Source: Thiomicrorhabdus aquaedulcis
GTDB lineage: Bacteria; Pseudomonadota; Gammaproteobacteria; Thiomicrospirales; Thiomicrospiraceae
Direction of reading: 5' to 3'
Assembly (NCBI RefSeq): GCF_004001325.1
Contig: NZ_AP018722.1
Coordinates: forward strand, 806,001-870,000
Length of the DNA stretch: 64,000 bases
Part shown: one piece after another, positions 4,411 through 62,256 of the stretch
Position numbering within the stretch: position 1 is the stretch's first letter
Layout: the number at the start of each line of letters is the position of its first letter
Translations under genes and position numbers: made by a program
The notes under the pieces: generated by a model
What the model was told of the DNA's origin: nothing
Seen by the model: the letters and a program-made list of their open reading frames with translations, nothing else
Database searches by the model: none

Positions 4411-4422
4411 ACCAGGCCTGGT
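4411..4422. repeat. palindrome ACCAGGCCTGGT, exact, intergenic
   Basis: Exact 12-bp palindrome in the flgG-flgH gap. No T-tract follows, so it does not look like a terminator. Confidence 0.9.
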
Positions 4423-4474
4423 TGCAAGCAGCGCGACAAGCAAGGCTATTGTGAATAGACTAAAGGGATAAAAA

Positions 4475-5212
4475 ATGAAATCTTTAATGCAAAAACACAT
4501 TAAGTTAGTGAATTTAGCCAGCGTGTTAATGTTGACAGGCGCAGTGTTAAGCGGTTGCAGCAGCACGCCAGAGCGTTTAGAGCACATTAGTTATGCGCCA
4601 AATTATCCGCTTAATATTCCCAAACCCGCGCAACCGCAAAATGGTTCGTTGTATCAGACTGGCGCCATGACGTTGTTTGACGATTCGCGCGCGCACCGCA
4701 TTGGCGACATTATTACCATTAGTTTGACCGAAAAAATCTCGGCTAAGAAAAAAGACGAAGCTAAGTACGATAAATCGAACAGTCAAGATTATGGCGTTAA
4801 AAATCCATTTAGTGTCACCACACCCAATAATTTGGTGGGCGATGCCATTAATGCCGTTACGTCACCCTTGCAAGGTTTAAGTTTGGGTTACGGCTCAGAA
4901 GGCTCGTTTGCGGGTAAAAGTGATGTTAAACAAGATTCAAGCTTAACCGGTTCTATTGCGGTGACCGTGGTAGAAGTGATTGGCAATGGCAATTTGGTGA
5001 TTCGCGGCGAAAAGTGGATTACCATTCACGATGGCGATGAAGTGGTGCAATTTGCCGGCATTATTCGTCCAGAAGATATTCAGTTAGACAACACCATTTC
5101 GTCCACCAAAGTGGCCGATGTGCGCTTGGTGTATAAAGACGTGGGTATTTCGGGCAACACCGCGCGCTCTGGCGCGGGCACGCAGTGGTTAAGTAAGTTT
5201 TGGCCTTTGTAA
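4475..5212 (+). CDS. flgH: flagellar L-ring lipoprotein FlgH
   Basis: FlgH is the outer-membrane lipoprotein that makes the L ring around the rod. The first 30 residues form a lipoprotein signal peptide ending in a lipobox (LSGC, cysteine near residue 27). The FlgH core is visible as SLYQTGAMTLFDDSRAHRIG, DIITISLTEKISAKK and the C-terminal VVEVIGNGNLVIRGEKW and FAGIIRPEDI motifs, ending GAGTQWLSKFWPL. The 245-residue length is normal. It is followed by an intergenic region with two palindromes, a dispersed repeat and a terminator. Confidence 0.97.
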   Translation: MKSLMQKHIKLVNLASVLMLTGAVLSGCSSTPERLEHISYAPNYPLNIPKPAQPQNGSLYQTGAMTLFDDSRAHRIGDIITISLTEKISAKKKDEAKYDKSNSQDYGVKNPFSVTTPNNLVGDAINAVTSPLQGLSLGYGSEGSFAGKSDVKQDSSLTGSIAVTVVEVIGNGNLVIRGEKWITIHDGDEVVQFAGIIRPEDIQLDNTISSTKVADVRLVYKDVGISGNTARSGAGTQWLSKFWPL

Positions 5213-5221
5213 TTGGGTTTA

Positions 5222-5233
5222 GCCAGGCCTGGT
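5222..5233. repeat. palindrome core copy GCCAGGCCTGGT, intergenic
   Basis: Retains the 10-bp core CCAGGCCTGG with G instead of A at the first base. It starts 10 bp after the flgH stop. Confidence 0.85.
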
Positions 5234-5248
5234 GATTTACTAAAAAAT

Positions 5249-5327
5249 CGTCATGCCGTGCTACGACACGGCATCTGTCACACCCACGGTCAGGTGCAAT
5301 AGATTTCGGGTCAAGCCCGTAATGACG
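5249..5327. repeat. 79-bp inverted-repeat element (CGTCAT...ATGACG ends)
   Basis: The ends CGTCAT and ATGACG are inverted. The interior has ATGCCGTG/CACGGCAT and the CGGGTCAAGCCCGTAATGACG-like 3' half, resembling a widespread class of short palindromic dispersed repeats in proteobacteria (recalled, not searched). Copies of the 12-bp palindrome lie 15 bp before and 13 bp after it. Confidence 0.5.
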
Positions 5328-5340
5328 AAGTTTATTTATG

Positions 5341-5352
5341 ACCAGGCCTGGT
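5341..5352. repeat. palindrome ACCAGGCCTGGT, exact, intergenic
   Basis: Exact copy between flgH and the terminator at 5392; the second of two copies that bracket the 79-bp repeat. Confidence 0.9.
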
Positions 5353-5494: not shown

Positions 5495-5618
5495 TTAGAC
5501 TAGTAAGAGTTGCGTTATGACAATTCGTAAAAATAATAAAAACAAGGTGTTACGTTGTTTTACACCACCAAAAACCCAGAAAAAATGTGACACGTATTGT
5601 GTTGCCAGGAGTTTTACC

Positions 5619-10221: not shown

Positions 10222-11553
10222 GTGAAAAATCAAATACGCATTGCGTCAATTATTTTGGCTTCAGGTGGGTTACTGGCAGTAACCGCACTGGCGTTTGCTC
10301 AAATGCAAGAACCAGTACAAATTCAAGTTAGCACAGCTGTGCAAGCCAGTTTGCAAGCGAATGTGCCTACCGGTGCCATTCGCGCCATACACCATGAGGC
10401 CGCACCACACACCACCCTAGCGTTGGCTAATACGCTGCTGGCACAAACCACTCAACCATTAATTGACAATCCGCAGGTGATGGACGAACCCTCTGTCAAA
10501 AATTCAACACCGTTAATAGCAGACGTTCCTACTAGTATTGACGCTAGCGCTAACATAGAAAACGACTATTCGTCCAAACTTACCAGGCCTGGTGAGCTTA
10601 TAAGCGCTCAATCAACCGACATGGTTAACTTATTTACCACGCCCATTACGCCGATGAGTGCTGATCAAGAACTGTCTTTGCAACCGGTTATTATTTGGTA
10701 CGATCACGAAATTATTATTGAATATCCCCAAGCCTTAGTGACTCCGCAAATTCTTAAACGGTCTATTGCACGTTTGTTGTTAAGCCCAGACAAGCTCGCA
10801 GCCGAAGAGTTGTTAAGTTTAAAACCCATTAAAAGTCAGCAGGTACCCGCGCTGTATTTAAAAGTGCGCGATCAAAATGGCAAAGCCATTCGTTATCCAG
10901 CGGACGCTTATGCGTACGTAGATTATTTAATCAAACATCAAGCCGAAGAAGTCGGCGACGATCAAGAGCGTTTTACCTTGGTGCACATTCCCATTACCAA
11001 GCGTCATTTGCCCAATCCGGTACAAGCTTATCAACACTGGGTGCAAGCGTATTCAGAACGTTTCAAGGTGTCGCAAGACATTGTGTTTGCCATTATGGAA
11101 GTGGAAAGCGCTTTTAATCCAAAAGCCGTGAGTAAGTCTGAGGCGTTGGGGTTAATGCAAGTGCAAGCGCACACCGCTGGTAAAGATGTGTATGAGTTGG
11201 TGGATCGCAAACAGGGCATGCCCGGGCGCGCCGAGTTGTTTGACCCGCAAAACAACATTCGCATGGGCGTGGCTTACTTTGGGTTGCTGAATCACGACTA
11301 TTTAAAAAGTGTGAGCAATCCTAAAAGTAAAGAGATGCTGGCCATTTCGTCATACAATGGAGGGTTTTCAACGGTCTTAAAGTTGTTTGGCAAGAATGCC
11401 GAAGAAGCATTGGCTCACATTAATCGTTTGCATCCGCAACAGGTTTATCGTATTTTACGTTACGACCATCCGTCGGATGAAACGCGTAACTACCTAGACA
11501 AGGTGATGCACGCCAAAAGTCGTTACACCGCTATGTTGGATTTAAATGTGTAA
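10222..11553 (+). CDS. secreted lytic murein transglycosylase (SLT domain, MltC-like)
   Basis: This enzyme cleaves the glycan strands of peptidoglycan in the periplasm. It has 443 residues, with a signal peptide in the first 27 (ending ALAFA-Q) and then a low-complexity linker to about residue 130. An MltC-type N-terminal region comes next, then the SLT domain with catalytic glutamate in FAIMEVESAFNPKAVSKSEA, the LGLMQVQ motif and AISSYNGGFSTVLK. The GTG start is favoured by GGAGG inside the terminator hairpin. Its position after flgL and the lack of a muramidase domain in FlgJ suggest a role in opening the wall for the rod (inference). A palindrome copy lies in the linker and encodes TRPGE. 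Confidence 0.85.
   Translation: MKNQIRIASIILASGGLLAVTALAFAQMQEPVQIQVSTAVQASLQANVPTGAIRAIHHEAAPHTTLALANTLLAQTTQPLIDNPQVMDEPSVKNSTPLIADVPTSIDASANIENDYSSKLTRPGELISAQSTDMVNLFTTPITPMSADQELSLQPVIIWYDHEIIIEYPQALVTPQILKRSIARLLLSPDKLAAEELLSLKPIKSQQVPALYLKVRDQNGKAIRYPADAYAYVDYLIKHQAEEVGDDQERFTLVHIPITKRHLPNPVQAYQHWVQAYSERFKVSQDIVFAIMEVESAFNPKAVSKSEALGLMQVQAHTAGKDVYELVDRKQGMPGRAELFDPQNNIRMGVAYFGLLNHDYLKSVSNPKSKEMLAISSYNGGFSTVLKLFGKNAEEALAHINRLHPQQVYRILRYDHPSDETRNYLDKVMHAKSRYTAMLDLNV
10582..10593. repeat. palindrome ACCAGGCCTGGT, exact, inside transglycosylase gene
   Basis: Exact copy in the low-complexity linker, read in frame as Thr-Arg-Pro-Gly. Confidence 0.9.
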
Positions 11554-14773: not shown

Positions 14774-15944
14774 TCACCAGGCCTGGTCATTGCTGTTGGC
14801 GCATATTAATCAATATTATGGGCAAGAAAAAGGCGTAATTCCTTTGCACGCTCCCTGTTTTGATGCGCGCGAAAAAGCACTGGTTGTTGACACTATTGAA
14901 TCCACATTTGTGTCTTCGGTGGGAGCCTATGTAACCGAGTTTGAGCAAGCGGTTGCTCTGTTTACTGGGGCCAAACATGCAGTGGCAGTAGTCAACGGCA
15001 CTATGGGGCTGTATTTAGCATTAAAAGTGGTTGGCATTCAACCCAATGATTTGGTTTTAACCCAATCGTTAACGTTTGTTGCGACTCCCAATGCAATCAA
15101 AATGCATCAAGCAGACCCTGTGTTTATCGATGTTGAACACAAAACGCTAGGGCTGTGTCCCGAATCATTAAGCGCTTTTTTAAATGAGCACACTGAGCAA
15201 CAACTTGGTCAATGTGTCCATCGCCAAACAGGTCGGGTAATTCGCGCCTGTATGCCAATGCATACGCTGGGTTTTCCGGCTAGAATTGATGTTATTTTAG
15301 AAATATGTAACCAGCACAACGTTGCCTTAGTGGAGGACGCCGCAGAGAGTTTGGGCAGCCTCTATAAAGGGCTGCATACCGGACGTTTTGGTAAGGTGGG
15401 CGTGTTCAGTTTTAACGGCAATAAAGTGATTACCACCGGCGGGGGTGGGATGCTAATTACCGATGATGATGAGTTGGCAGCAAGTGCTAAGCACTTAAGC
15501 ACCACTGCAAAAATTTCGCATGCCTGGAAGTTTGAGCATGATGAATCTGCTTACAATCTGCGTATGCCCAATATCAATGCCGCCTTAGGTGTTGCGCAGA
15601 TGCAAAAATTGCCGTCATTTTTGGCAGAAAAACGGCATTGGGCGCTCAGTTATCAACAGTTACCAGGCCTGGTGATGCTAAAGGAATCAAACAATTCGCA
15701 AGCCAATTATTGGCTGAACGCGCTGTTATGCGAGTCAGAAGCGGAGCGTGATGCATTTTTAGAGTTCAGCAACGGCCAAAATATTCAAACGCGTCCGCTT
15801 TGGACGCCGATGCATCAATTGCCAATTTATAAAGATTGTCTGCGAACTGATTTACCCAACACCGAATGGCTAGCACAACGGATTGTTAATTTACCAAGCG
15901 GTGTGGTGTGTAGTAAAAAACCAGAAAAGGGTTCGCACGGTTAA
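14766..15944 (+). CDS. legC: PLP-dependent sugar aminotransferase (LegC type)
   Basis: LegC transfers an amino group to C4 of the 4-keto sugar made by LegB. The 392-residue DegT/DnrJ/EryC1/StrS family protein has VAVVNGTMGLYLALK, the VEDAAESLGS aspartate motif that contacts PLP, and FSFNGNKVITTGGGG with the Schiff-base lysine. The start at 14766 (MFNHQAWSLLL) overlaps the legB stop, and palindrome 14776-14787 supplies codons 4-8 of this gene. An upstream in-frame start inside legB is unlikely. A second palindrome copy lies at 15662. The C-terminus (KPEKGSHG) may be slightly altered compared with the family. Confidence 0.88.
   Translation: MFNHQAWSLLLAHINQYYGQEKGVIPLHAPCFDAREKALVVDTIESTFVSSVGAYVTEFEQAVALFTGAKHAVAVVNGTMGLYLALKVVGIQPNDLVLTQSLTFVATPNAIKMHQADPVFIDVEHKTLGLCPESLSAFLNEHTEQQLGQCVHRQTGRVIRACMPMHTLGFPARIDVILEICNQHNVALVEDAAESLGSLYKGLHTGRFGKVGVFSFNGNKVITTGGGGMLITDDDELAASAKHLSTTAKISHAWKFEHDESAYNLRMPNINAALGVAQMQKLPSFLAEKRHWALSYQQLPGLVMLKESNNSQANYWLNALLCESEAERDAFLEFSNGQNIQTRPLWTPMHQLPIYKDCLRTDLPNTEWLAQRIVNLPSGVVCSKKPEKGSHG
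14776..14787. repeat. palindrome ACCAGGCCTGGT, exact, at legC start
   Basis: Exact copy beginning 10 bases after the A of the legC ATG and read as His-Gln-Ala-Trp-Ser; it follows the legB stop by 2 bases. Confidence 0.9.
15662..15673. repeat. palindrome ACCAGGCCTGGT, exact, inside legC
   Basis: Exact copy read as Leu-Pro-Gly-Leu-Val, a surface-type turn, in the C-terminal part of LegC. Confidence 0.9.
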
Positions 15945-16311: not shown

Positions 16312-16886
16312 AACAGCTTCTTTTAATCGGCGCAGGCGGCCATTGTAAAGCGTGTATTGATGTTATTGAACAAATTGGGGAATGGCAAATTGCGGGGATA
16401 ATCGACCGTAAAGACTCAGGTGTTACGGATGTATTAGGTTATCCGGTAATAGGTTGTGATGATGATTTAGCCCAACTAAAAAAACAATACGACTATGCGT
16501 TTGTCACGGTTGGGCAAATTCGTTCAGCAGATCTCAAAATCAAATTATTTAATCAACTCAATATGCTGGGTTTTAAACAGCCAGGCCTGGTTTCGCCATT
16601 AGCCTATGTTTCCAAACACGCCAAAATAGGCGAGGGCACCATTATTATGCACCATGCAATGGTCAATGCCTCCGCAAAAGTCGGAGACAACTGCATTATT
16701 AATAGTAAAGCTTTAATAGAGCATGATGCCGTTGTTGAAAACCATTGTCATGTTTCAACAGGCGCAACCATTAATGGTGGTGTAATTGTCGGTGAGCAAA
16801 GCTTTATTGGCAGTCACGCCACGACTAAACAATTTATATCCCTTTTACCCAGGTCTTTTATCAAAGCGGGAACCGTAGCAATATGA
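16308..16886 (+). CDS. legH: sugar N/O-acetyltransferase (NeuD/PglD/LegH family)
   Basis: This family acetylates the 4-amino group of the dideoxy-diamino sugar. The 192-residue product has an N-terminal Rossmann-like substrate domain (LLLIGAGGHCKACIDVIEQI) and a C-terminal left-handed beta helix of hexapeptide repeats (AKIGEGTIIMHHAMVNASAK, VGDNCIINSKALIEHD, VVENHCHVSTGATING). The histidine in IEHD is the usual catalytic base. It overlaps the ParE-like gene by ATGA at its start and legI by 4 bp at its end. A palindrome copy at 16580 encodes QPGLV at the domain junction. Confidence 0.85.
   Translation: MKQLLLIGAGGHCKACIDVIEQIGEWQIAGIIDRKDSGVTDVLGYPVIGCDDDLAQLKKQYDYAFVTVGQIRSADLKIKLFNQLNMLGFKQPGLVSPLAYVSKHAKIGEGTIIMHHAMVNASAKVGDNCIINSKALIEHDAVVENHCHVSTGATINGGVIVGEQSFIGSHATTKQFISLLPRSFIKAGTVAI
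16580..16591. repeat. palindrome core copy GCCAGGCCTGGT, inside legH
   Basis: Ten-base core intact, first base G. Read as Gln-Pro-Gly-Leu-Val between the two domains of LegH. Confidence 0.85.
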
Positions 16887-17877
16887 GCATTTTTATCATA
16901 GCAGAAGCTGGAGTCAATCATAACGGCTCATTAGTATTGGCAAAACAACTGGTAGATGTGGCAGCAGATTCGGGTGCTAACGCGGTAAAGTTTCAAACCT
17001 TTAAAGCGGCAACACTTGTCACCAAGTCCGCCAAACAAGCGGATTATCAAACAGCAAACACCGGTAAAGAAGAAAGTCAATTTGATATGCTCAAGCGGTT
17101 AGAGTTGAGTGAAGCGGATCATCAAGAACTGGTTGATTATTGCCAATTCAAAAAATTGAATTTATGTCCACGCCGTTTGATTTACAAAGCATTCGGTTCT
17201 TAAACGGTTTGGGTTTAAAGCGTTTTAAAATCCCGTCCGGTGAAATTACCAACTACCCTTACCTAAAAATGGTCGGCGGTTATAACAAAGAACTTGTACT
17301 CTCAACGGGCATGGCAACCTTAGCTGAAATAGAAGCCGCATTAAGTCTATTGATTGAGTCCGGCACAGAAAAAAATAAAATCACCATTTTACACGCCACC
17401 ACCGATTACCCGACCCAAATGCAAGACGTCAACCTAACCGCTATGCAAACCATTGCACAGGCGTTTAAAGTCAACGTAGGTTATTCCGATCACACACCGG
17501 GCATCGAAGTGCCAATAGCGGCGATCGCACTTGGTGCGTCTATTATCGAAAAACACTTCACTTTAGATAAAAACTTGCCTGGTCCTGATCATAAAGCCAG
17601 TCTAGAACCCCAAGAGTTAAAGCAAATGGTGCAAGCCATTCGCAATATCGAAATCGCTCTGGGTGATGGCATTAAACGCCCAAGCGCTAATGAGCAAAAA
17701 AACATGCAGGTCGCCAGAAAAAGCCTCGTCGCTTTAACCGATATTAAAAAAGGCGACACCTTTAGCGAACACAACCTCACCGTCAAACGACCAGGCCTGG
17801 GTATTTCACCGATGCGTTGGAACGAAATCATCGGCCAAGCCGCCCAAAAAGATTATCAGGCAGATGAATTGATATGA
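16883..17877 (+). CDS. legI: N,N'-diacetyllegionaminate synthase (NeuB family), apparent 1-base frameshift
   Basis: NeuB-type synthases condense a 6-deoxy diamino hexose with phosphoenolpyruvate to give the nine-carbon nonulosonate. The first part (FIIAEAGVNHNGSLVLAKQL, VKFQTFKA) is in one frame and the rest (EFMSTPFDLQSIRFLNGLGL, KIPSGEI, GYSDHTPG, IIEKHFTLDKNLPGPDH, SAF-like C-terminal domain) in the next. The switch is at an A run of six (17150-17155); a seventh A would give an uninterrupted 331-residue protein of normal length. This is more likely a sequence error than a dead gene. The stop overlaps the next start (ATGA). It is an essential step of the pathway. Confidence 0.88.
17790..17801. 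repeat. palindrome core copy ACCAGGCCTGGG, inside legI
   Basis: Core intact, last base G. Read as Arg-Pro-Gly-Leu-Gly, a motif that is natural in NeuB C-termini. Last copy before an 18 kb stretch without any. Confidence 0.75.
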
Positions 17878-39298: not shown

Positions 39299-39310
39299 AC
39301 CAGGCCTGGT
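39299..39310. repeat. palindrome ACCAGGCCTGGT, exact, before the fliE promoter
   Basis: Exact intergenic copy that ends 30 bp before the -24 element of the fliE promoter. Confidence 0.9.
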
Positions 39311-45567: not shown

Positions 45568-45579
45568 ACCAGGCCTGGT
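45568..45579. repeat. palindrome ACCAGGCCTGGT, exact, fliJ-fliK gap
   Basis: Exact intergenic copy 12 bp after the fliJ stop, immediately followed by a half copy (AACCAGGCTAC). Confidence 0.9.
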
Positions 45580-45686: not shown

Positions 45687-47282
45687 ATGTTGCATGCCAC
45701 ACACGCTATTAAACCCCCATCAGTCGCAAACGCCGCGGTACAGGACGTTGTGGCTCAATCAAAAGACAAGCTTTCTGCAAAGGGGGCGAGTTTTGCCGAT
45801 GTGTTTTCAACGCTCACCGAGACGACAACGGAAACAGAGGCGTCGGTTTTAAGCTCAGCGTTAACATTAGCACCGGGTCAATCGATATCTTTGGCGGGGT
45901 TACCAGCGTTGCCTGATGTAAGTGCTCAAATAGCGCAACCTGGCCTAGTTAATAATTTAACTGAAACAGATTTAAATACGACATTAACTGAACCTGATGC
46001 CACCGTGATGGCGCAGTTAGGTTTGCTGAACACTGGATTGTCTGATGATGCGTTAGCCCAAGTTGCAAGACCTGCTAATGGATTGACCAGGCCTGGTGAA
46101 TTGGCTGTGGCAACCATTGACAAGAGTTTAATTGATTCAGATGGCATGGCTTTAAGCACGGACGCTAGTGGGTTGCTCGTGAGCATCGAAAGCAGTAATG
46201 CAATTACAGCACCTATTGCCAACGCATCAGAGGTTTCTAGCACGTTGGCAGATGCGGTTGTTAATGATAAAACTATGGTTGATTTGTCTACAATTAATGC
46301 GTCTTTAGAGGCACAAGCAGTCCCAGTGGTTGGTGCACTTGGGGTTAGCACAAGTTCGCTGGTAACGCCTACAGGCACTGTAAATACTGCCGCAAGTTCG
46401 GCAAGTATTAATACCGGTGCAGGCATGCCACAATCTGGGGCTCAAACCGGTACGCAAGATGGTTCAACACAGTCTGGATTTTCTGGACAAGGGCAGTCTA
46501 ATGCTGGTGGACAGCCGAATGCTGGGCAATCGAATGCTGGTGGACAGCCGAATGCTGGGCAATCGAATGCAGGACAGCCAAATGCTGGGCAACCGAACGC
46601 GGGGCAGTCCAATCCTGGACAAACTAATCCGGGCCAGCCTAATGTTGGTCAAGCAACGCCAGGCCAGGCCATTGCACAGCAAATGATGGCTATGGGTCAA
46701 AATGTACAGGGTGATAAACAGGAGGCCTTAGAGCAACAGGCCAATGCATTTAAATTGACGGACGGAAATCTGGCAAAAAGTGGCGGTACAGACTTGTTAG
46801 TGGGGGCAGAGGTTGCCACTGAGCGGCGCAGTAGTTTGCCGCTTGGACTGCAAACCATTGCACATCCAGTTAAGCATCCTCAATGGGGGCAGGCTTTGGG
46901 ACAGCGGGTAGTCTTTATGGCTAACAGCGGTATTTCACAAGCGCAAATCACGCTTAACCCCGAAAAGCTCGGACCCATGCAGGTTAAGTTGCATATGGAC
47001 AAAGAACAGCAACTGCACATCACGTTAAACGCGCAGCATGGCGCAACGCGTGAAAGTATAGAAAACGCCTTGCCACGTTTAAAAGAGATGTTAGAGCAAG
47101 CAGGGATTGATTTAGGTTCGGTAAACGTTGGTCAAGATCGCCAGTTTTCCGAGCAGTTTTCAGGGGATTCATCGTCTCAACAACATTCACCAGGCCTGGT
47201 TAACGGGTCTGACACGCACACCGATGAACCAATGGTAATACCAGCGGTTTTGTCTGATAATCTTGTCGACTATTACGCCTAG
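45687..47282 (+). CDS. fliK: hook-length control protein FliK with glycine/asparagine-rich repeats
   Basis: FliK measures hook length and switches export specificity. The 531-residue product has a long Ser/Thr/Ala-rich N-terminal ruler, a repeat block (about residues 268-330) and a C-terminal switch domain with AQITLNPEKLGPMQVKLHMD, LNAQHGATRESIENALPRLK and MLEQAGIDLGSVNVGQDRQF. It is the first gene after a sigma-54 promoter. Two exact palindromes lie in it, at 46086 and 47189. The ruler is where the protein is expected to tolerate length change. Confidence 0.92.
   Translation: MLHATHAIKPPSVANAAVQDVVAQSKDKLSAKGASFADVFSTLTETTTETEASVLSSALTLAPGQSISLAGLPALPDVSAQIAQPGLVNNLTETDLNTTLTEPDATVMAQLGLLNTGLSDDALAQVARPANGLTRPGELAVATIDKSLIDSDGMALSTDASGLLVSIESSNAITAPIANASEVSSTLADAVVNDKTMVDLSTINASLEAQAVPVVGALGVSTSSLVTPTGTVNTAASSASINTGAGMPQSGAQTGTQDGSTQSGFSGQGQSNAGGQPNAGQSNAGGQPNAGQSNAGQPNAGQPNAGQSNPGQTNPGQPNVGQATPGQAIAQQMMAMGQNVQGDKQEALEQQANAFKLTDGNLAKSGGTDLLVGAEVATERRSSLPLGLQTIAHPVKHPQWGQALGQRVVFMANSGISQAQITLNPEKLGPMQVKLHMDKEQQLHITLNAQHGATRESIENALPRLKEMLEQAGIDLGSVNVGQDRQFSEQFSGDSSSQQHSPGLVNGSDTHTDEPMVIPAVLSDNLVDYYA
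46086..46097. repeat. palindrome ACCAGGCCTGGT, exact, inside fliK ruler
   Basis: Read as Thr-Arg-Pro-Gly-Glu, the same frame as the transglycosylase copy at 10582. Confidence 0.9.
46489..46668 (+). repeat. imperfect tandem repeats in fliK (PNAGQ-type)
   Basis: Units such as CAGCCGAATGCTGGGCAATC recur, including a 33-bp segment present twice in succession, coding for repeats of Gln-(Pro/Ser)-Asn-(Ala/Pro)-Gly. All visible units preserve frame. Later units are more diverged. Confidence 0.9.
47189..47200. repeat. palindrome ACCAGGCCTGGT, exact, near fliK 3' end
   Basis: Read as Ser-Pro-Gly-Leu-Val in the Ser/Gln-rich tail after the switch domain. Confidence 0.9.
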
Positions 47283-52308: not shown

Positions 52309-52441
52309 CGCCACGATTAAACAGTGTCATGATTAAATTATGGTTCACCACCACTTTGTAATGCACTGATTATGGCTTTACAAAGTGGTTTATGCGTCAT
52401 TGTCTAAGCACATAACAGTGCAAACTAAAGAAGTAAATCAG

Positions 52442-53071
52442 ATGCAACGATTCAACCAGGCCTGGTTAATGTTATTAAGCCGCTCAATCTTTTCGGTTAT
52501 GTTGCTGGGGTTTTTTACGTCCGTTCATGCGACCGAAGCGCCGGAGTCTCAAGAGCCTAACAAAACGTCTATTGATCAAACTGTTACCACGCCAGCTACG
52601 CAGCCGCATTTTGCAATAACGTCTGCCGATCCTAAATCTTCATCTGTTACAGCACCCGCATCAACGGCTGCACCAACGCCGGTTATTGGTGAGTCGGCTT
52701 CAAAGCCCAGTGATTATTTTGGCCAAATTATGCTGTCTTTGGTGTTGGTGCTCATGATTATCTTTTTGGCGGCGTGGTTGTTGCGCCGCTATGGTCGTTT
52801 TCCTGGCGTAGCCGACGGGCATTTAAAAGTGCTTGGGGCTTTATCGGTCGGACAACGTGAGCGAATTTTACTGTTGCAAGTAGGAAGTGAGCAAATACTG
52901 GTGGGCGTGACTACCAGTAAAATAACCACGTTGCACCATCTTGAAGAGCCTGTGCAAGTAAAGGATAATGTGGCCATAAGCAGCCAGTTGATGAACAGTT
53001 CGTTTTCGCAGCGTTTGCAAGAAGCCCTAAAACCCAAGGATGCAACAAACACCCCTCGTGCAGACACTTAA
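52442..53071 (+). CDS. fliO: flagellar export protein FliO
   Basis: FliO assists assembly of the FliP ring. From ATG 52442 the 209-residue product has a signal peptide (to about residue 32, SVHA), a Thr/Ser/Pro-rich periplasmic part, one membrane helix (IMLSLVLVLMIIFLAAWLLR) and the FliO cytoplasmic domain (LKVLGALSVGQRERILLLQV, QILVGVTTSKITTLHHLEEP). An upstream in-frame start at 52385 has no ribosome site advantage. It overlaps fliP by 32 bp. Confidence 0.88.
   Translation: MQRFNQAWLMLLSRSIFSVMLLGFFTSVHATEAPESQEPNKTSIDQTVTTPATQPHFAITSADPKSSSVTAPASTAAPTPVIGESASKPSDYFGQIMLSLVLVLMIIFLAAWLLRRYGRFPGVADGHLKVLGALSVGQRERILLLQVGSEQILVGVTTSKITTLHHLEEPVQVKDNVAISSQLMNSSFSQRLQEALKPKDATNTPRADT
52455..52466. 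repeat. palindrome ACCAGGCCTGGT, exact, in fliO signal peptide
   Basis: Read as Asn-Gln-Ala-Trp-Leu near the start of the signal peptide, the same frame as the copies in legC and flhF. Confidence 0.9.
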
Positions 53072-54106: not shown

Positions 54107-54119
54107 TGAGGATGACATC

Positions 54120-54898
54120 ATGAGCTTTAGTTATACTGAGTTTCTGCAATTACTAGGATTGTATTTTTATCCCTTTGTGCGCATTGGCACTATGCTGTCT
54201 GTTATTCCTATCTTTGGTACGCAAACCGTTCCGGTGCGTGTTCGCTTATTTTTAACCCTGTTTATCACCCTTGCAGTGGCTCCTTCGTTAGCTTTACCAC
54301 CCGCTGTAGACCCTTTTACATGGTTGGGATTGTTGACTATTTTGCAACAAGTTCTTATTGGTTTAGCCATGGGCGTTATTTTTATGGTGGTGTTTCAGGC
54401 GTTTGTATTGGCGGGGAGTTTAATCGCCATGGGTATGGGACTGGCGTTTGCTTCAATGGTTGACCCTGGTACAGGGGTGCAGGCACCCATAGTGTCGCAA
54501 TATTTTAGTATTATTGTAACTTTATTATTTTTGGCGTTAAACGGTCATTTGTTGGTGATTCAAACGGTGGCGGACAGTTTTGAGTACCTGCCAATAGGCA
54601 CAAGTTTTTTAACTACGGACAGTTTGAAACTAGTATTTGAGTTTGGGCTCTATATTTTCTCAGCGGGTGTGTTAATTGCCTTACCGGCTATTACGGCCTT
54701 ATTATTAATAAACATCGCGTTTGGTGTAGTAACCCGCGCGGCACCGGCGTTAAATATTTTGCGGTGGGTTTTCCGGTGACGTTGTTAACAGGCCTGGTGT
54801 TATTGTCCTTAACCACGCCGCTTATGTTGCCGCATTTGCAAGAATTGGTACAACGTGCGGTCGAGTTGATTACCAGTTTGCGTTTAAACGAGGGCTAG
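54120..54898 (+). CDS. fliR: flagellar export gate protein FliR, apparent 1-base frameshift near 3' end
   Basis: FliR caps the export gate complex. From ATG 54120 the frame gives the normal FliR body (FLQLLGLYFYPFVRIGTMLS, PIFGTQTVPVRVRLFLTLFI, MGMGLAFASMVDPGTGVQAP) and ends early at LNILRWVFR. Adding one T to the run of four (54757-54760) gives NIFAVGFPVTLLTGLVLLSL and a 259-residue protein ending LRLNEG, the usual FliR C-terminus and length. It is probably a sequence error. Its GAGGG near the end serves as the flhB ribosome site. A near copy of the palindrome (AACAGGCCTGGT) lies at 54787. Confidence 0.9.
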
Positions 54899-56115: not shown

Positions 56116-58209
56116 ATGGATTTTAATCAACTTTTCCGCAGATTTAAACAAAGCTCGCTAAAAGGCCTGGGTGTGCCAATTGCTGTGCTGGCTTTGTTGG
56201 GAATGATCACAATTCCCTTGCCGCCATTGTTGTTGGATGTCTTTTTTACGTTTAACATTGCGCTGTCTTTAGTGGTGTTAATGATTACGCTCTATGCCAA
56301 ACGTCCTTTGGACTTTGCTATTTTTCCGACCGTTATTCTATTGGTTACCTTGTTTAGACTGTCGCTAAACATTGCCTCAACCCGCGTTATTTTGTTAGAA
56401 GGCCATCAAGGTGGTGCGGCGGCCGGTCATGTTATTGAATCATTTGGTGAGTTTGTTATTGGTGGAAACTACGCTGTAGGTTTGGTGGTGTTCGCCATTT
56501 TGGTGGTAATTAACTTTGTGGTTATCACTAAAGGTGCGGGTCGTGTTGCTGAGGTGAGCGCACGTTTTACACTGGACTCTATGCCCGGTAAACAGATGGC
56601 GATTGATGCCGACTTAAACGCAGGGTTAATCAACCAAGAGCAAGCTCAAGCACGACGTGCCGAAGTGGCCAGTGAAGCGGAATTTTACGGCGCGATGGAC
56701 GGAGCCAGTAAGTTTGTGCGTGGTGATGCCGTTGCCGGCCTTATTATTATGTTTATCAACTTAATTGGCGGCTTTATCATTGGCATGACTCAGCACAGCA
56801 TGAATGCTGCAGATGCCGCCGAAGTTTATACGCTGTTGACACTGGGTGATGGTTTGGTTGCGCAAATACCAGCACTATTATTGTCAGCCGCTACAGCCAT
56901 TATTGTCACGCGCGTCAGTGACAGTGACAGCAAAGACATGGGACAACAAATGCAAACGCAGATGTTGGCCAATCCAAAAGCATTGGGAACAGCGGCGGGG
57001 ATTGTTGGTTTTATGGGGTTGATTCCTGGCATGCCAAATGTCGCGTTTTTAACCTTTGCCGCAGTCGCTGGTGGCGGTGCGTACATGATTCACCGTAAAG
57101 ATAAAATTGAAAAATCCACAGATAAACCCTTAAATATAGAACCAGAGCAAGCCATTAAACCTGCTGACTTAAGTTGGGAGGACGTGCAGTCGGTTGATAT
57201 ATTAGGGCTTGAAGTGGGTTATCGATTGATTCCGATGGTGGATCAGTCGCAAAATGGTCAATTATTAGACCGTGTTAAAGGAGTGCGCCGCAAGGTGTCG
57301 CAAGAGTTGGGGTTCTTGGTGCCACCGGTGCATATTCGAGATAATCTTGACCTAAAACCCAATCAATATCGCGTTATGCTTATGGGTGTTCCCATTGGTA
57401 TGGGTGAGGTGTTTCCCGACCGAGAATTGGCCATTAACCCTGGACAAGTATTTGGTAATATTGCCGGCACGCCAACTAAAGACCCAACATTTGGCTTAGA
57501 TGCCGTGTGGATTGCAGCCAATGATCGCGATCAAGCGCAAGCATTAGGATACACAGTGGTCGACTCCAGTACAGTAGTGGCCACACACGTCAGTCAAATT
57601 GTACAAGATTATGCTTACGATTTATTGGGCTACGATGAAACACAAAAGCTATTGGATAAGCTCAAGCAAACCTCCCCTAAACTAGTGGATGAGTTAGTGC
57701 CGAATCGTTTGTCGTTGGCGATTGTGGTGCGCGTTTTGCAAAACTTATTGCAAGAAAAAGTCTCAATTCGCGACATGCGTACCATTTTAGAAACGCTAAC
57801 CGAAAAATCAAGTTTAACTCAAGCGCCAAGTGAGCTCACCTCTTATGTGCGCACCGCATTAGGGCGTTCAATTATTCAAGATATTGTTGCCAATGATGCC
57901 GAATTAAAAGTAATTACATTAGAGCCAAGTTTGGAACAGATTTTGCTTCAAGCCACGCAGGGCGCTCCAGAGGGTCAATTAGCCATTGAACCAGGCCTGG
58001 CCGAACGGTTGCACACGACCCTTAAAGACGAGGCGCAAAAGCTTGAAATGTCAGGTCAATCGGCGGTTTTGTTGGTGGCACCACAAATTCGTTCTCAGTT
58101 GGCAAGGCTTTTTAGGTACAGTTTACCCACCTTGACCATTTTGGCGTATTCAGAAGTGCCAGAAAATCGTCAAATTAGTGTTGTCGCCAATGTAGGGCAA
58201 GGAGGCTAA
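56116..58209 (+). CDS. flhA: flagellar export gate protein FlhA
   Basis: FlhA forms the nonameric export platform. The 697-residue product has eight membrane helices in the N-terminal half, with DVFFTFNIALSLVVLMITLY, PTVILLVTLFRLSLNIASTR, GAGRVAEVSARFTLDSMPGK and QMAIDADLNAGLI (the FHIPEP region), and the cytosolic domain with PVHIRDNLDLKPNQYRVMLM and LGRSIIQDIV. The ATG follows a weak ribosome site. flhF begins 2 bp after its stop. A palindrome core is at 57990. Confidence 0.97.
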   Translation: MDFNQLFRRFKQSSLKGLGVPIAVLALLGMITIPLPPLLLDVFFTFNIALSLVVLMITLYAKRPLDFAIFPTVILLVTLFRLSLNIASTRVILLEGHQGGAAAGHVIESFGEFVIGGNYAVGLVVFAILVVINFVVITKGAGRVAEVSARFTLDSMPGKQMAIDADLNAGLINQEQAQARRAEVASEAEFYGAMDGASKFVRGDAVAGLIIMFINLIGGFIIGMTQHSMNAADAAEVYTLLTLGDGLVAQIPALLLSAATAIIVTRVSDSDSKDMGQQMQTQMLANPKALGTAAGIVGFMGLIPGMPNVAFLTFAAVAGGGAYMIHRKDKIEKSTDKPLNIEPEQAIKPADLSWEDVQSVDILGLEVGYRLIPMVDQSQNGQLLDRVKGVRRKVSQELGFLVPPVHIRDNLDLKPNQYRVMLMGVPIGMGEVFPDRELAINPGQVFGNIAGTPTKDPTFGLDAVWIAANDRDQAQALGYTVVDSSTVVATHVSQIVQDYAYDLLGYDETQKLLDKLKQTSPKLVDELVPNRLSLAIVVRVLQNLLQEKVSIRDMRTILETLTEKSSLTQAPSELTSYVRTALGRSIIQDIVANDAELKVITLEPSLEQILLQATQGAPEGQLAIEPGLAERLHTTLKDEAQKLEMSGQSAVLLVAPQIRSQLARLFRYSLPTLTILAYSEVPENRQISVVANVGQGG
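57990..58001. repeat. palindrome core copy ACCAGGCCTGGC, inside flhA
   Basis: Core intact, last base C. Read as Glu-Pro-Gly-Leu-Ala, the conserved EPGLAERL turn of FlhA, so selection on the protein may hold this copy. Confidence 0.7.
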
Positions 58210-58210
58210 G

Positions 58211-59404
58211 GTGCAAATAAAACGCTACTTCGCGCCAACCATGCGTCAAGCGCTTATTTTAGTTAAAGAAGAGCATGGCGACGATGCCGTTATTTTGTCG
58301 TCCAGAGAGACTATGGATGGTGTAGAGGTGGTTGCGGCATTAGACCCTGAAGCCCTGCAGTTCCAAAAAACGACCGAATTAAGTGCTTCAGTTGCTAGAA
58401 GCGGTTACGATTCACCCGAAAGTACGTTAAGAGATTTTCGCGCTCAGACTTTGCCGTCATCGACTGCGGAATCCCCGCAGTTATCAAGCATGGCTGAGGA
58501 ATTAAAAGCCGTGCGCGCTATGTTAGAAAATCAGTTGTCTGGTTTGGCTTGGGGACAAAACGAACAAAATGAACCGCATAAAGTCGAATTACTTAAACGT
58601 CTGCTGCAGCTGGGAATAGGTTGGGGCTTAAGCCAAAAACTGGTCGCCAATATTCAAACTAAAAATCACCAGGCCTGGTCAGATATTTTAAGTGAGCTGG
58701 AACATCAAATTCCCATTGATGAGCGAGATATTATTGACCGTGGTGGAATTATTGCATTAGTTGGTCCTACTGGAGTGGGTAAAACCACTACTATTGCTAA
58801 AATGGCGAGTCGATTTGTGATGCGTAACAGTCCAAATCAGTTGGCTTTAATCACGACAGATTGTTATAAAATTGGCGCGCAAGCGCAGTTAAAAACCTTT
58901 GCCGATTTAATCAGTGTTCCCGTTCATGTAGTGAGCTCTCAAGGTGAGTTGTACGCATTGCTAACTTCGCTAAGCCATAAGAAAATGGTGCTTATTGACA
59001 CCGCCGGCATGAGCCAGCGTGATTTGCAACTTACCTTGCAATTAACATCAGGACACGAAGGCTTAACCAGTGTACGTAATTACTTGGTTATGTCTGCGGC
59101 CACACAATTAAGCGTAATGAAAGACATTGTGCGCTCATTTGGCAAGGTGGTATTAAAAGGTTGTATATTGACTAAGGTCGATGAGGCGCTGCAGTTGGGC
59201 AGTATTTTAACGGTGTTAATTGAAGAGCAGCTGCCCATTGCCTATTTATCGAATGGGCAGCGTGTGCCAGAAGATTTAGAAACCGTGCGTATTAGAGAAC
59301 TGATTGACCGAGCCATTGTGTTAGGTCAACAACACAAACAACCCATAGAAAACGAGCAAGCATTCCGAATGGGAATGGGAAAGGAGATAACCAATGCTCA
59401 ATGA
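58211..59404 (+). CDS. flhF: polar flagellar placement GTPase FlhF
   Basis: FlhF is an SRP-type GTPase that marks the pole for flagellum assembly. The 397-residue product has an N-terminal B domain (RYFAPTMRQALILVKEEHGD), an N-helical part and the G domain: GIIALVGPTGVGKTTTIAKM (P-loop), LITTDCYKIGAQAQLKTFA, VLIDTAGMSQRD and ILTKVDEALQLGSI. The GTG start lies 2 bp after the flhA stop; flhG overlaps its end by 11 bp. Palindrome at 58668 encodes HQAWS. Confidence 0.96.
   Translation: MQIKRYFAPTMRQALILVKEEHGDDAVILSSRETMDGVEVVAALDPEALQFQKTTELSASVARSGYDSPESTLRDFRAQTLPSSTAESPQLSSMAEELKAVRAMLENQLSGLAWGQNEQNEPHKVELLKRLLQLGIGWGLSQKLVANIQTKNHQAWSDILSELEHQIPIDERDIIDRGGIIALVGPTGVGKTTTIAKMASRFVMRNSPNQLALITTDCYKIGAQAQLKTFADLISVPVHVVSSQGELYALLTSLSHKKMVLIDTAGMSQRDLQLTLQLTSGHEGLTSVRNYLVMSAATQLSVMKDIVRSFGKVVLKGCILTKVDEALQLGSILTVLIEEQLPIAYLSNGQRVPEDLETVRIRELIDRAIVLGQQHKQPIENEQAFRMGMGKEITNAQ
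58668..58679. repeat. palindrome ACCAGGCCTGGT, exact, inside flhF
   Basis: Read as His-Gln-Ala-Trp-Ser at the N-domain/G-domain border. Confidence 0.9.
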
Positions 59405-60272
59405 TCAAGCCGCAGGCCTGCGAGCCATGCAATCCACCAATAGCGCCCTAAAGCAGCCAGCCAGTCAGCCGGTAAGAGTTATTGCTGTGGCCAGTGGAAA
59501 AGGGGGCGTTGGTAAAACAAATGTCTCGGTTAATCTAGGTATTTCGCTCAGTAAATTGGGCAATCGCGTGTTGCTTATGGATGCCGATATGGGCTTGGCA
59601 AATGTGGATATTATGCTGGGTCTTCACACCTCTTATAATTTATCGCATGTGTTAGATGGGTTAAAAACTCTGCAAGAAGTTATTGTCGAAGGTCCGGGTG
59701 GGCTTAAAATTATTCCGGCTGCGTCAGGCGTTAGACGCATGGCGCAATTGACTGCTATGGAAAATGCTGGAATAATCAACGCCTTTTCCGAACTCAATGG
59801 TGAGTTGGATGTGTTGATTGTAGACACGGCGGCAGGGATTGCCGACAGTGTCGTGAGTTTTTGCCGAGCCGCGCAAGAGGTTGTGGTGGTAGTGACTGAC
59901 GAGCCTGCCTCTATTACAGACGCATATGCTCTTATTAAAGTGCTGAGTCGTGACTATCAACTCACTCGCTTTAGATTGTTGGCCAATATGAGCAAGTCTG
60001 AAGCGCACGGTCGCGCACTCTACGAAAAACTAGCACGCGTGTGCGAGCAGTTTTTAGACGTGAGTCTTGATTACTTGGGTTCTGTGCCATTTGATCACGA
60101 TTTGCGTGATGCGGTACAAAAACAGATTCCTGTCACCTTGTTTAAGCCGGGCAGCGAGTCTGCTAAAGCCTTTAGAGCGATGGCGCAAAAAATAGAAACT
60201 TGGCCAAGACCCAAAGGGGTTACGGGGTATTTGCAGTTTTTTGTTGAAAACTTATTTCAATCAAGCCACTAG
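59394..60272 (+). CDS. flhG: flagellar number regulator FlhG/FleN (MinD-like ATPase)
   Basis: FlhG limits the number of polar flagella by acting on FlhF and FlrA/FleQ. The 292-residue product starts with the DQAAGLRAM segment known to stimulate FlhF, then the deviant Walker A VASGKGGVGKTNVSVNLG, LMDADMGLANVDIMLGL, DVLIVDTAAGIADSVVSF and the C-terminal membrane-targeting helix region. It overlaps flhF and precedes fliA by 8 bp. Confidence 0.96.
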   Translation: MLNDQAAGLRAMQSTNSALKQPASQPVRVIAVASGKGGVGKTNVSVNLGISLSKLGNRVLLMDADMGLANVDIMLGLHTSYNLSHVLDGLKTLQEVIVEGPGGLKIIPAASGVRRMAQLTAMENAGIINAFSELNGELDVLIVDTAAGIADSVVSFCRAAQEVVVVVTDEPASITDAYALIKVLSRDYQLTRFRLLANMSKSEAHGRALYEKLARVCEQFLDVSLDYLGSVPFDHDLRDAVQKQIPVTLFKPGSESAKAFRAMAQKIETWPRPKGVTGYLQFFVENLFQSSH

Positions 60273-60280
60273 GAAGCCCA

Positions 60281-61006
60281 ATGAGTGCAACCCATGTCTA
60301 TGAACAAGTGCAGCGTCAAGCCACTAATGAAGTGCAAGATTTAGAGCAGTATTTACCGTTGGTAAAGCGTATTGCCTATCATTTAAAAGGGCGTTTACCC
60401 AGCAGTGTGTTTGTTGAAGACTTGATTCAATCGGGCGTAATTGGTCTTATTGAAGCGATGCAAAAATTTAACGCCAATCAGGGTGCCAGTTTTGAAACTT
60501 ACGCGGGTATTCGTATACGGGGCGCTATGCTCGATGAAATTCGTAAGGGTGATTGGACGCCACGCTCGGTGTATCGAAAGTCGCGTGAGGTAAGTGAAGC
60601 AATTAATAAAGTTGAATCTAGGTTAGGTCGTGAAGCGCGCAGTGAAGAGATTGCAGAAGAGTTAGGTGTGTCGTTAGACGAGTACTATCATATCTTGCAA
60701 GATACGAATGGTTCGCAACTGTTGTCCATTGACGTGCCAGATCACGAAGAATTGGCCGAAGAACGTATGATTGGGCACTTTAAAACACCTTTGGCCGAGC
60801 TGACCGAAACTGGTTTTAAAGCCGCATTGGCCAAAGAAATTGCCGAACTTCCCGAAAAAGAAAAATTGGTAATGGCTTTGTATTACGACGAAGAGTTAAA
60901 TTTAAAAGAAATTGGCGAGGTGTTGAGCGTCAGTGAATCACGCGTAAGTCAAATTCATAGCCAAGCCATTAAAAGAATTAGAGCACGTTTATCCGCTTGG
61001 ATGTAA
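60281..61006 (+). CDS. fliA: flagellar sigma factor FliA (sigma-28)
   Basis: FliA reads late flagellar promoters such as those before flagellin and fliD here. The 241-residue product shows region 2 (LVKRIAYHLKGRLPSSVFVE, DLIQSGVIGLIEAMQKF, SFETYAGIRIRGAMLDEIRK), region 3 (VESRLGREARSEEIAEELGV) and region 4 (YDEELNLKEIGEVLSVSESR). AGGAAG precedes the ATG. No anti-sigma gene flgM is visible in the window. Confidence 0.97.
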   Translation: MSATHVYEQVQRQATNEVQDLEQYLPLVKRIAYHLKGRLPSSVFVEDLIQSGVIGLIEAMQKFNANQGASFETYAGIRIRGAMLDEIRKGDWTPRSVYRKSREVSEAINKVESRLGREARSEEIAEELGVSLDEYYHILQDTNGSQLLSIDVPDHEELAEERMIGHFKTPLAELTETGFKAALAKEIAELPEKEKLVMALYYDEELNLKEIGEVLSVSESRVSQIHSQAIKRIRARLSAWM

Positions 61007-61082
61007 CGGCAAATCCATTATAGAGCCAAATTGAACTACGTTGAGTTCAGTTCAATTAACCGCAGAGTTGAAGGAAGTAGAG

Positions 61083-61487
61083 ATGCAAATTAATAGAGAT
61101 ATGAATATTTTAGTGGTAGATGATTTTTCAACCATGCGCCGAATCGTTAAAAACCTATTAAAAGAGTTGGGGTTTAGTAAGTTTGATGAGGCTGATGATG
61201 GGTCAACCGCCTGGCCAATGATTCAATCGGGAAAATACGACTTTATAGTCAGTGATTGGAACATGCCGCAAATGACAGGTATTGATTTGCTTAGAAATGT
61301 AAGAGCTAATGAGGCTTTAAAAAGTACCCCATTTTTATTGATTACGGCCGAAGCTAAACGAAGCCAAATTTTAGAAGCCGCACAAGCAGGAGTAGACGGT
61401 TACATTGTAAAACCGTTTACGGCCGCTACGTTAAACGAAAAAATTCATAAAATATTTGAACGCGTTGCCGAAAGACAGAACCAATAA
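61083..61487 (+). CDS. cheY: chemotaxis response regulator CheY
   Basis: CheY carries the phosphoryl signal from CheA to FliM. The 134-residue product has the acidic pair in NILVVDDFSTMRRIVKNLLK, phosphoacceptor in DFIVSDWNMPQMTGIDLL, and lysine in VDGYIVKPFTAATLNEKI. ATG 61083 follows AAGGAAG; an upstream TTG at 61041 would add residues foreign to the family. A strong terminator separates it from cheZ. Confidence 0.97.
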   Translation: MQINRDMNILVVDDFSTMRRIVKNLLKELGFSKFDEADDGSTAWPMIQSGKYDFIVSDWNMPQMTGIDLLRNVRANEALKSTPFLLITAEAKRSQILEAAQAGVDGYIVKPFTAATLNEKIHKIFERVAERQNQ

Positions 61488-61517
61488 GCCTGTCTTTATT
61501 CAATGGTCTTCGCCCTA

Positions 61518-61556
61518 AAGCCCTATACAAATGCTATTTTGTATAGGGCTTTTTTT
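61518..61556 (+). terminator. terminator between cheY and cheZ
   Basis: A 13-bp stem (AAGCCCTATACAA against TTGTATAGGGCTT, with an added A-T pair) closes a 6- to 8-base loop and runs into a T-tract. It lies only about 18 bp before the cheZ start, so cheZ translation depends on read-through or a promoter I cannot see. Confidence 0.9.
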
Positions 61557-61573
61557 ATTTAAGGAAACAAAAA

Positions 61574-62256
61574 ATGAGTGGTGCCACACAAATTAATCCA
61601 GCCTTAGTACAAGCCCTGTTAAATGCTTTAAACGCCCAAGATACTGAGCGCAGCAGCGAATTATTAGATGAGATTACTCAGCTGAGAACTTCAGAGCTCT
61701 ACCAGCAGTTAAGTCATTTAACTCAGAACTTGCATAAAACATTAGATGATTTAAACCATGATGACTCGTTGTTAATTCAAACAAAACACGACATTCCTGA
61801 TGCCACCGAGCGCTTGCAATATGTTATTTCGGCCACCGAAGACGCCAGTAACACTACGTTAAACAGCGCCGAGCAGGCGCTTTCAAGTTTGGAAAATTTA
61901 GAAGAGTCGCTTAAAACTTTTTATCAAATGACCAGGCCTGGTCAGTTCAAGCATTACTCAATCAAGTGCAAAATGAATTAACGACCATTATGCTCGCACA
62001 GTCATTTCAAGATTTAACTGGGCAAGTACTGAATCGTGTCATTTTAATCATATCGTCGTTAGAGCAAAGTTTGGTCGACTTAATCAGTCGCTCGGGTCAC
62101 GATTACAACGCCATTCCGGCAAGAGTAGAAACTCTGGAACAGCAGCAAAAAAATCAAGCGCAAGGCATTGGGCCTAATGTGACTCAGGCCTCTAAGACCG
62201 ATTCGGCTGGTTCGCAGGATGATGTTGATGATTTACTGAGTCAGCTAGGCATTTAG
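61574..62256 (+). CDS. cheZ: CheY-P phosphatase CheZ, apparent 1-base frameshift
   Basis: CheZ removes the phosphoryl group from CheY. The first frame covers the helical hairpin start (LSHLTQNLHKTLDDLNHDDS, YVISATEDASNTTLNSAEQA) to about residue 115. The second holds the active-site helix IMLAQSFQDLTGQVLNRVI, with the catalytic Asp-x-x-x-Gln, and the C-terminal CheY-binding tail DDVDDLLSQLGI. Adding one T to the run of five (61918-61922) joins them as KTFLSNDQAWSVQALLNQVQ, a 227-residue CheZ of normal size. The palindrome copy (61931) then reads Gln-Ala-Trp, its usual frame. Probably a sequence error. Confidence 0.9.
61931..61942. repeat. palindrome ACCAGGCCTGGT, exact, inside cheZ
   Basis: Exact copy 8 bp downstream of the apparent frameshift; in the restored frame it encodes Asp-Gln-Ala-Trp-Ser. 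Confidence 0.9.

Follow-up and report, generated by a model that had tools for sequence, protein, structure and literature searches.

The window, the whole 64-kb stretch of DNA analysed, comes from a sulfur-oxidising bacterium, a Thiomicrorhabdus (Gammaproteobacteria), and contains 53 ORFs of at least 150 codons, ten of which were scanned and all ten found to be flagellar. A first-pass annotation had reported in it a 12-bp palindrome, ACCAGGCCTGGT, lying between genes as well as in genes of unrelated functions; the mixed location was confirmed, but the functions of the scanned genes were not unrelated. Its 13 positions for the exact palindrome and five for a ten-base core were all correct, and two additional sites (54787 and 59411) carry the 8-base core only. 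The sites are listed below, with no strand assigned.

4411..4422, exact palindrome ACCAGGCCTGGT, between ORFs 3569-4360 and 4475-5212
5222..5233, core site GCCAGGCCTGGT, 9 bases past the end of ORF 4475-5212
5341..5352, exact palindrome, flanked by ORFs 4475-5212 and 5517-6731
10582..10593, exact palindrome within ORF 10222-11553
14776..14787, exact palindrome just past the end of ORF 13769-14773, within the overlapping listed ORF 14712-15944
15662..15673, exact palindrome within ORF 14712-15944
16580..16591, core site GCCAGGCCTGGT within ORF 16308-16886
17790..17801, core site ACCAGGCCTGGG within ORF 17140-17877
36104..36115, core site TCCAGGCCTGGT within ORF 35364-36569
37390..37401, exact palindrome within ORF 36590-37750
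39299..39310, exact palindrome upstream of fliF, in the gap between ORFs 37747-39162 and 39430-39795
45568..45579, exact palindrome upstream of fliK, 12 bases past ORF 45106-45555
46086..46097, exact palindrome within fliK
47189..47200, exact palindrome within fliK
52455..52466, exact palindrome within ORF 52385-53071, close to its start
54787..54798, 8-bp core site AACAGGCCTGGT, flanked by ORFs 54099-54779 and 54902-56029; among 20 aligned relatives, five retain the core (G015, G021, G009, G030, G005)
57990..58001, core site ACCAGGCCTGGC within flhA; among 20 aligned relatives, four retain the core (G021, G009, G016, G030)
58668..58679, exact palindrome within flhF; of 16 aligned relatives, nine have the core at the matching position
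59411..59422, 8-bp core site CGCAGGCCTGCG; core retained in none of 18 aligned relatives
61931..61942, exact palindrome with the complete extension, TGACCAGGCCTGGTCA, within ORF 61574-61981

Under an order-2 Markov model, about 0.004 copies of ACCAGGCCTGGT were expected in the window and 13 were observed, which bears out the earlier statement that such a 12-mer should occur far less than once in 64 kb by chance. For the ten-mer, about 0.04 copies were expected and 18 observed. None of 100 dinucleotide shuffles of the window reached 18 ten-mers, and none reached the 21 matches to the 12-mer found when up to two mismatches were allowed. The 764 kb of the main contig that were sampled held 208 copies of this GC-rich palindrome, versus 0.075 expected, and exact counts over the 2.54 Mb genome gave 718 copies, versus none for the reversed control of ACCAGGCCTGGT. 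Restriction of the copies to the window, a possibility raised at the outset, is therefore excluded, the core being abundant in relatives as well.

The strict unit of the motif is the 8-bp core CAGGCCTG (1,106 copies in the genome, 20 in the window), set in a graded wider palindrome, TNAC-CAGGCCTG-GTNA. Among 414 half-sites from the 764 kb sample, T occupied position -2 in 318 and a purine (G or A) position -1 in 294, so that the palindrome extends outward past the 12-mer and the copies, which had been described as having no shared flanks, do share them. Each alternative base occurred 0–1 times at positions 3–6 of the half-site and 3–22 times at positions 1–2, deviations being limited to the outer bases. 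Cores with one mismatch were at background in the window's own genome (160 observed versus 164–194 expected), samples of the core-rich relatives G036, G035 and G030 also had no excess of them, and isolated half-sites were not in excess in the own genome. Such strictness counts in favour of the site of a dedicated intracellular protein that binds DNA as a dimer and serves in nucleoid structure, in recombination or repair, or with the motif as a palindromic analogue of Chi, weak selection in a very large population maintaining each site; we regard this explanation as somewhat doubtful. A mild excess of isolated ACCAGGC in the G030 sample (21 versus 12–13 expected) speaks against it. The Chi sites of RecBCD are, like the motif, short GC-rich octamers spread over the chromosome, but they are asymmetric and strand-biased, whereas the motif is symmetric and has dialects within a single genus, which weighs against a Chi analogue.

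The core was abundant in 18 of 37 genomes of the family (236–1,173 copies) and near background in the other 19 (3–74 copies). One core-poor genome carried 567 copies of a sister palindrome, WACCGGCCGGTW, which was present at most seven times in each of the other 36 and from whose middle the A of the core is missing. Genomes differed in the base adjoining the core, with a predominance of C, a predominance of G, A as the commonest base, or a mixture, as tallied from samples that were small for several of them. Spelling therefore differs between species, as in the species dialects of the uptake sequences DUS and USS. ACCGGCCGGT is one of the motif's spellings. On a tree of 21 genomes, the rich or poor state changed at least four times, with all poor genomes within one genus, which suggests that the motif is a dispensable trait; its absence from core-poor genomes is inferred to be loss. 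Repeated absence and a change of spelling in one genus are awkward for an intracellular protein with an essential chromosomal role. That rich, motif-free and switched-spelling members occur together in a single genus also makes it a good setting for finding the reader of the motif by a simple comparison of gene content.

HIP1, the highly iterated palindrome of cyanobacteria, has been linked to methyltransferases. By analogy, a solitary DNA methyltransferase could read the core, and methylation-dependent mismatch repair could create and keep the sites. The comparison with HIP1 (GCGATCGC; Elhai 2015, PMC4390886), drawn already in the first-pass annotation, is apt as regards form: in the sections of that paper cited here, HIP1 and the alternate HIPs are highly repeated, GC-rich perfect palindromes with strict inner and loose outer bases, and another palindrome dominates some genomes. 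These likenesses, including the substitution of another palindrome in one of our genomes, count for a HIP1-type origin. However, HIP1 occurs about once per 1 kb (PMC4390886), versus one core per 2.3 kb here, and the clade differs. Four methyltransferase families (PF00145, PF01555, PF02086 and PF02384) were searched in the 37 genomes at E ≤ 0.001. Seven of the 18 rich and eight of the 19 poor genomes had a cytosine-5 family match over the cut-off (Fisher p = 1.0); the corresponding figures were five and five for PF01555, three and two for PF02086, and, with any match counted and marginal ones included, 15 and 14 for PF02384. The core-rich G018 and G027 had no match in any of the four families, and G010 and G033, also rich, had one marginal PF02384 match each and nothing else; across these families and genomes, a cognate methyltransferase thus did not accompany the palindrome. 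For this reason the HIP1 explanation is unsupported, as is methylation of the motif, proposed earlier, as the cause of its iteration. A Dcm-like cytosine-5 enzyme, considered because the 12-mer holds two CCWGG sites, was rejected, as it showed no association with the rich or poor state and the C flanking the core is not constant across genomes. With the core's A also not found in the middle of the sister palindrome, a HIP1-type origin is improbable. Since the motif persists in genomes with no match to the four families, some other force may create and keep such palindromes; and, no explanatory DNA-methylating enzyme having been found in some relatives, the motif may be a self-recognition tag.

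Of 268 aligned comparisons between species, 163 showed the site retained, versus 5.7% for control 8-mers, which counts in favour of an intracellular protein. Rich relatives had gaps at the aligned sites in only 15 of the 268, the differences being mostly substitutions, in aligned genes too, which does not fit the insertion of a longer shared repeat; as had been stated, the copies are not parts of a longer mobile repeat. Judging from these alignments, sites arise via point mutation and individual sites are long retained. We know of few bacterial motifs with hundreds of copies retained site by site between species. In motif-poor genomes, none of 218 aligned sites was retained, versus 5.8% for controls, which suggests active avoidance of the core, but 100 kb each of G019, G024 and G003 contained 0, 1 and 1 cores, versus 0.4–2.3 expected, counts too small to tell.

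Of the 208 perfect copies in the 764 kb sample, 108 lay within called ORFs and 100 (8 of them at ORF edges) fell in the 15% of DNA outside. Divergent intergenic regions were poor in copies, with 7 of the 83 that had both neighbours called, versus 23% of that intergenic DNA, a point for the intracellular protein. Numerous intergenic copies closely followed a stop codon, 12 spacings were below 50 bp versus 6.7 expected, and some copies 9–45 bp apart could pair as stem-loops. All this would fit a terminator hairpin, a REP-like repeat or a phage-borne repeat, but an origin of this kind appears very improbable. Termination as the main function is disfavoured because of the 108 copies within ORFs, the rarity of gaps at aligned sites argues against repeats, and the 14-mer GACCAGGCCTGGTC was found in 39 viral stretches with a single site in each, which disfavours carriage by phages (records very close to the window's genome were possibly left out of this search).

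Macrodomain and occlusion sites (matS, NBS, parS) show regional bias along the origin–terminus axis. No such bias was seen in the 764 kb sampled, where the quarters from origin to terminus had 0.427, 0.456, 0.438 and 0.469 cores per kb. This disfavours a macrodomain element and weighs against an intracellular protein with a macrodomain, occlusion or parS-like pattern; of the chromosome-organising role first suggested, the version with regional bias is likewise disfavoured.

Our leading reading, put forward tentatively from sequence comparisons, is that in Thiomicrorhabdus and its relatives the motif marks the whole genome for recognition: it would be a palindromic tag for DNA uptake (self-recognition), varying in dialect and acting in natural transformation. 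The uptake signal listed among the first suggestions is thus kept, with several features of uptake sequences present and others not. Motif-bearing DNA would be preferentially taken up or recombined, biased uptake with homologous replacement would spread the copies (molecular drive), and motif-free genomes and dialects would follow where the receptor was lost or altered. From the symmetry of the motif, its putative reader would be a dimer or would bind either orientation equally well. More guardedly still, we propose that the system may have an origin separate from those of Neisseriaceae and Pasteurellaceae, with a dimeric putative receptor unrelated to ComP. If so, it would be, to our knowledge, the first uptake or self-recognition system of such kind in free-living sulfur oxidisers.

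As described in the cited sections, Neisseriaceae DUS (Frye 2013, PMC3630211) resemble the motif in high copy number, species dialects and a core that is constant while its neighbours change, and one genome has 1,294 uptake sequences in overlapping dyad symmetry. Pasteurellaceae USS (Bakkali 2007, PMC1939737; PMC5217627) are comparably numerous (H. influenzae has about 1,300; PMC5217627) and lie in both coding and non-coding DNA. Known uptake sequences are over-frequent in non-coding DNA and, USS included, have no orientation bias (PMC1939737); here also, copies were copious in coding and non-coding DNA, with a non-coding excess and no regional bias. In contrast, one-mismatch copies of DUS outnumber perfect ones (PMC3630211) and USS overrepresentation declines gradually with mismatch load (PMC1939737; Helsem 2025, PMC12616744), whereas no near-miss excess of the core was found in the own genome and three core-rich samples. 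Uptake sequences are stated to be non-palindromic, USS and single DUS among them (PMC1939737), whereas the motif is a palindrome. Both differences were counted against the uptake reading.

DUS are read by ComP, whereas ComP_DUS (PF16732) was above the cut-off in none of the 37 genomes, with one sub-cut-off match in G019. Counts of prepilin-type proteins did not separate rich from poor among 21 genomes. One prepilin cluster was rejected as type IV minor pilins, its gene sizes and order resembling a type II secretion operon, and a second as the source of a receptor, being common to rich and poor genomes. ComEC, found in 33 of 37 genomes, poor ones included, was discarded as a competence marker; it was missing in G004, G029, G031 and the core-rich G006, whose genome is 82% complete. 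No receptor candidate came from the ComP_DUS, ComEC and prepilin comparisons, and literature searches for competence or uptake sequences in the group gave nothing; the ComP_DUS, prepilin and literature results, and ComEC in poor genomes, were likewise counted against uptake. Counted for it were the high copy number, dialects, dispensability, intergenic excess, uniform density, the few copies in divergent regions, ComEC in 33 genomes, and the scarcity of the motif in two pieces of DNA: a plasmid-like contig of 97 kb had a five-fold lower density, and only 4 cores lay in a relative's low-GC stretch of 80 kb.

Thirteen exact copies of the 12-bp palindrome and five further copies of its 10-bp core form had been listed in the window by the first-pass annotation, and all of these positions were confirmed; an order-2 Markov model predicts about 0.004 and 0.04 occurrences, respectively. 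The whole genome (2,537,035 bases, two contigs) holds 718 copies of the 12-mer and none of its reversed control. Sampling 764 kb of main-contig sequence gave 208 12-mers, 264 10-mers and 340 copies of the central 8 bp, CAGGCCTG (the core), against 0.075, 0.69 and 8.6 expected. The excess over the Markov model is genome-wide, and confinement to the window, one of the observations named in advance as refuting the motif, is excluded by the genomic count and by its being common in part of the family.

Bases deviating from the 12-mer were limited to the outer two of each half (3–22 per alternative base), whereas the inner four half-site bases had 0–1 deviants per alternative base. Outside the 12-mer, 318 of 414 half-sites had a T at position −2. 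The repeated unit can be written TNAC-CAGGCCTG-GTNA, its central 8 bp being strict, and both T.A flanks were present at 137 of 340 cores. Once the sites were masked, one-mismatch cores showed no excess in the own genome (160 versus 164–194 expected), nor in samples of three other genomes, G036, G035 and G030 (71, 24 and 21 versus 77–78, 26–34 and 21–23). Isolated ACCAGG was below expectation in the own genome, sites masked (204 versus 266–328), and isolated ACCAGGC mildly above it in the G030 sample (21 versus 12–13).

Counted in 58 genomes, own included, the 12-mer was frequent in part of the family (Piscirickettsiaceae at NCBI) and occurred once or not at all in each of 21 genomes from other families. 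Core counts divided the 37 family genomes sharply, into 18 rich ones with 236–1,173 and 19 poor ones with 3–74. Genomes intermediate for the 12-mer proved core-rich, for example T. chilensis, with 16 12-mers and 900 cores. The base adjacent to the core was mainly C in the own genome, G030, G033 and G036, mainly G in stretch L128 and genome G008, most commonly A in stretches L126 and L130, and mixed in G035 and T. chilensis, the smaller samples holding only 4–15 cores. Genome G023 had 12 cores but 567 copies of a sister palindrome, WACCGGCCGGTW, often bordered by an extra T or A, against at most seven in any of the other 36 family genomes. Some of these copies were paired, 17–40 bp apart (whole genome; stretches L084–L088). 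No iterated palindrome was seen in 100-kb samples of G019, G024 and G003.

Around dnaA, at least two 10-mers were present in 11 of 32 loci (at most 21 kb each) from named or draft members of the group; DnaA of the window's genome shares at most 88% identity with its counterparts in named Thiomicrorhabdus and relatives. This genome is a Thiomicrorhabdus (Gammaproteobacteria), and G016 and G025 are its congeners. On an FlhA tree of 21 genomes, in which several forks are weakly supported, the rich and poor states require at least four changes, or five if the sister palindrome is scored as a state of its own. We read these changes as losses, because rich genomes exist in other genera. An 80-kb stretch of G036 (C1, 209001–289000; L282–L285) had only four cores and a G+C content of 0.45–0.49, versus 0.53 for 100 kb sampled from the same genome; the stretch, presumed type II secretion genes included, is probably acquired DNA.

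Retention of individual sites was followed in two aligned regions, the flhA neighbourhood and a presumed secretion operon. Among seven rich congeners, own included, 163 of 268 comparisons found the core retained where a site aligned (110 unalignable cases dropped); the comparisons derive from 53 distinct sites and so are not independent. Of control 8-mers of equal G+C, 2,623 of 46,152 were identical. Retention was 35/130 against four congeners that are core-rich but 12-mer-poor (90 unaligned), 8/64 against other genera (94 unaligned) and 0/218 against eight poor genomes (254 unaligned). The last value lies below the 5.8% of the control 8-mers, possibly reflecting quicker erasure of sites once the force keeping them was lost. 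The flhF site (58668) had a core in 9 of 16 aligned relatives, most others differing by substitutions. Such retention, with substitutions elsewhere, indicates that sites arise mostly by point mutation and persist long. The ten window proteins scanned were all flagellar (FlgE, FlgI, FlgK, FliD, FliF, FliI, FliK, FliM, FlhA, FlhF).

With a simple ORF caller (at least 80 codons) that called 85% of the DNA coding, 100 of 208 perfect copies (8 of them at ORF edges) and 115 of 340 cores lay outside ORFs or at their edges. The 83 perfect copies with both neighbours called fell into tandem-plus (27), convergent (26), tandem-minus (23) and divergent (7) intervals, which comprise 29.9, 21.1, 18.9 and 20.4 kb of intergenic DNA. 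Core density was level from origin to terminus (0.43, 0.46, 0.44 and 0.47 per kb). Both 12-mer and 10-mer were absent from L064, a 20-kb stretch holding rpoB and an EF-Tu gene. Copies within ORFs used all three reading frames (16, 47 and 45), and spacing was near random, with 12 cases less than 50 bp apart versus 6.7 expected. The second contig (97 kb, L039–L043) had 5 12-mers per 96.8 kb, 0.052 versus 0.272 per kb; judged by its genes for Rep3, TraN of F-type conjugation and a ParA-like protein, it is likely a conjugative plasmid. It also encodes two large DUF285 proteins (L040, 1917–5451).

A methylation target had been among the proposed roles, and HIP1 of cyanobacteria, to which the motif was likened, is linked to methyltransferases (PMC4390886). 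Matches above cut-off to the cytosine-5 family PF00145 were found in 7/18 rich and 8/19 poor genomes; for two further methyltransferase families the figures were 5/18 and 5/19 (PF01555) and 3/18 and 2/19 (PF02086). For a fourth, PF02384, 15/18 and 14/19 had a match of any kind, marginal ones counted. By clear matches, 14/18 rich and 18/19 poor genomes had any methyltransferase of the four families (Fisher p = 0.18). Rich genomes G010 and G033 had a single marginal PF02384 match each and nothing else in these families, and G018 (653 cores) and G027 (522 cores) had no match in any of them, which speaks against the proposed role and makes a methyltransferase an improbable cause of the iteration.

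That the motif is missing repeatedly inside a single genus, and that its spelling drifts, both point to a dispensable, self-propagating tag. Uptake bias, a known driver of such tags, would spread the motif, and we tentatively favour this reading. Neisserial uptake sequences have dialects, and their one-mismatch copies outnumber the perfect ones (PMC3630211); uptake sequences are described as non-palindromic, favouring non-coding DNA over expectation and falling off gradually with mismatch load (Bakkali 2007, PMC1939737). The motif fits the uptake-signal role suggested at first pass in its dialects, non-coding excess and flat distribution, whereas the symmetry, the lack of excess near-misses and the absence of the neisserial receptor domain ComP_DUS (above cut-off in 0/37 family genomes) tell against it. 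The missing near-misses would count less if these free-living bacteria form far larger populations than host-bound species do. It is somewhat less likely that a dimeric DNA-binding protein inside the cell reads the motif, and an origin as structural or mobile elements is very improbable.

ComEC was present in 33/37 family genomes, and all 21 genomes examined had 7–15 prepilin-type proteins, which did not separate rich from poor. A conserved cluster of several of these (L266, relatives L267–L281) was common to both and includes a gene that by eye resembles a response regulator.

In the literature searched, which leaves out most subscription papers, we found no published description of the motif, nor anything on Thiomicrospira uptake sequences, Thiomicrospira overrepresented palindromes or Hydrogenovibrio natural competence. 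Among the listed matches to the exact motif or 10-base core, none concerned a bacterial genome motif, judged by title; PMC5217627 mentions neither motif nor genus, and in one paper naming Thiomicrorhabdus the palindromes mentioned belong to CRISPR. Three other words were overrepresented in the main-contig sample, CAAAGGTCTC, CAATCCACGC and TGGATTGAAA, with about 40 copies each; they may come from arrays, perhaps as CRISPR repeats.
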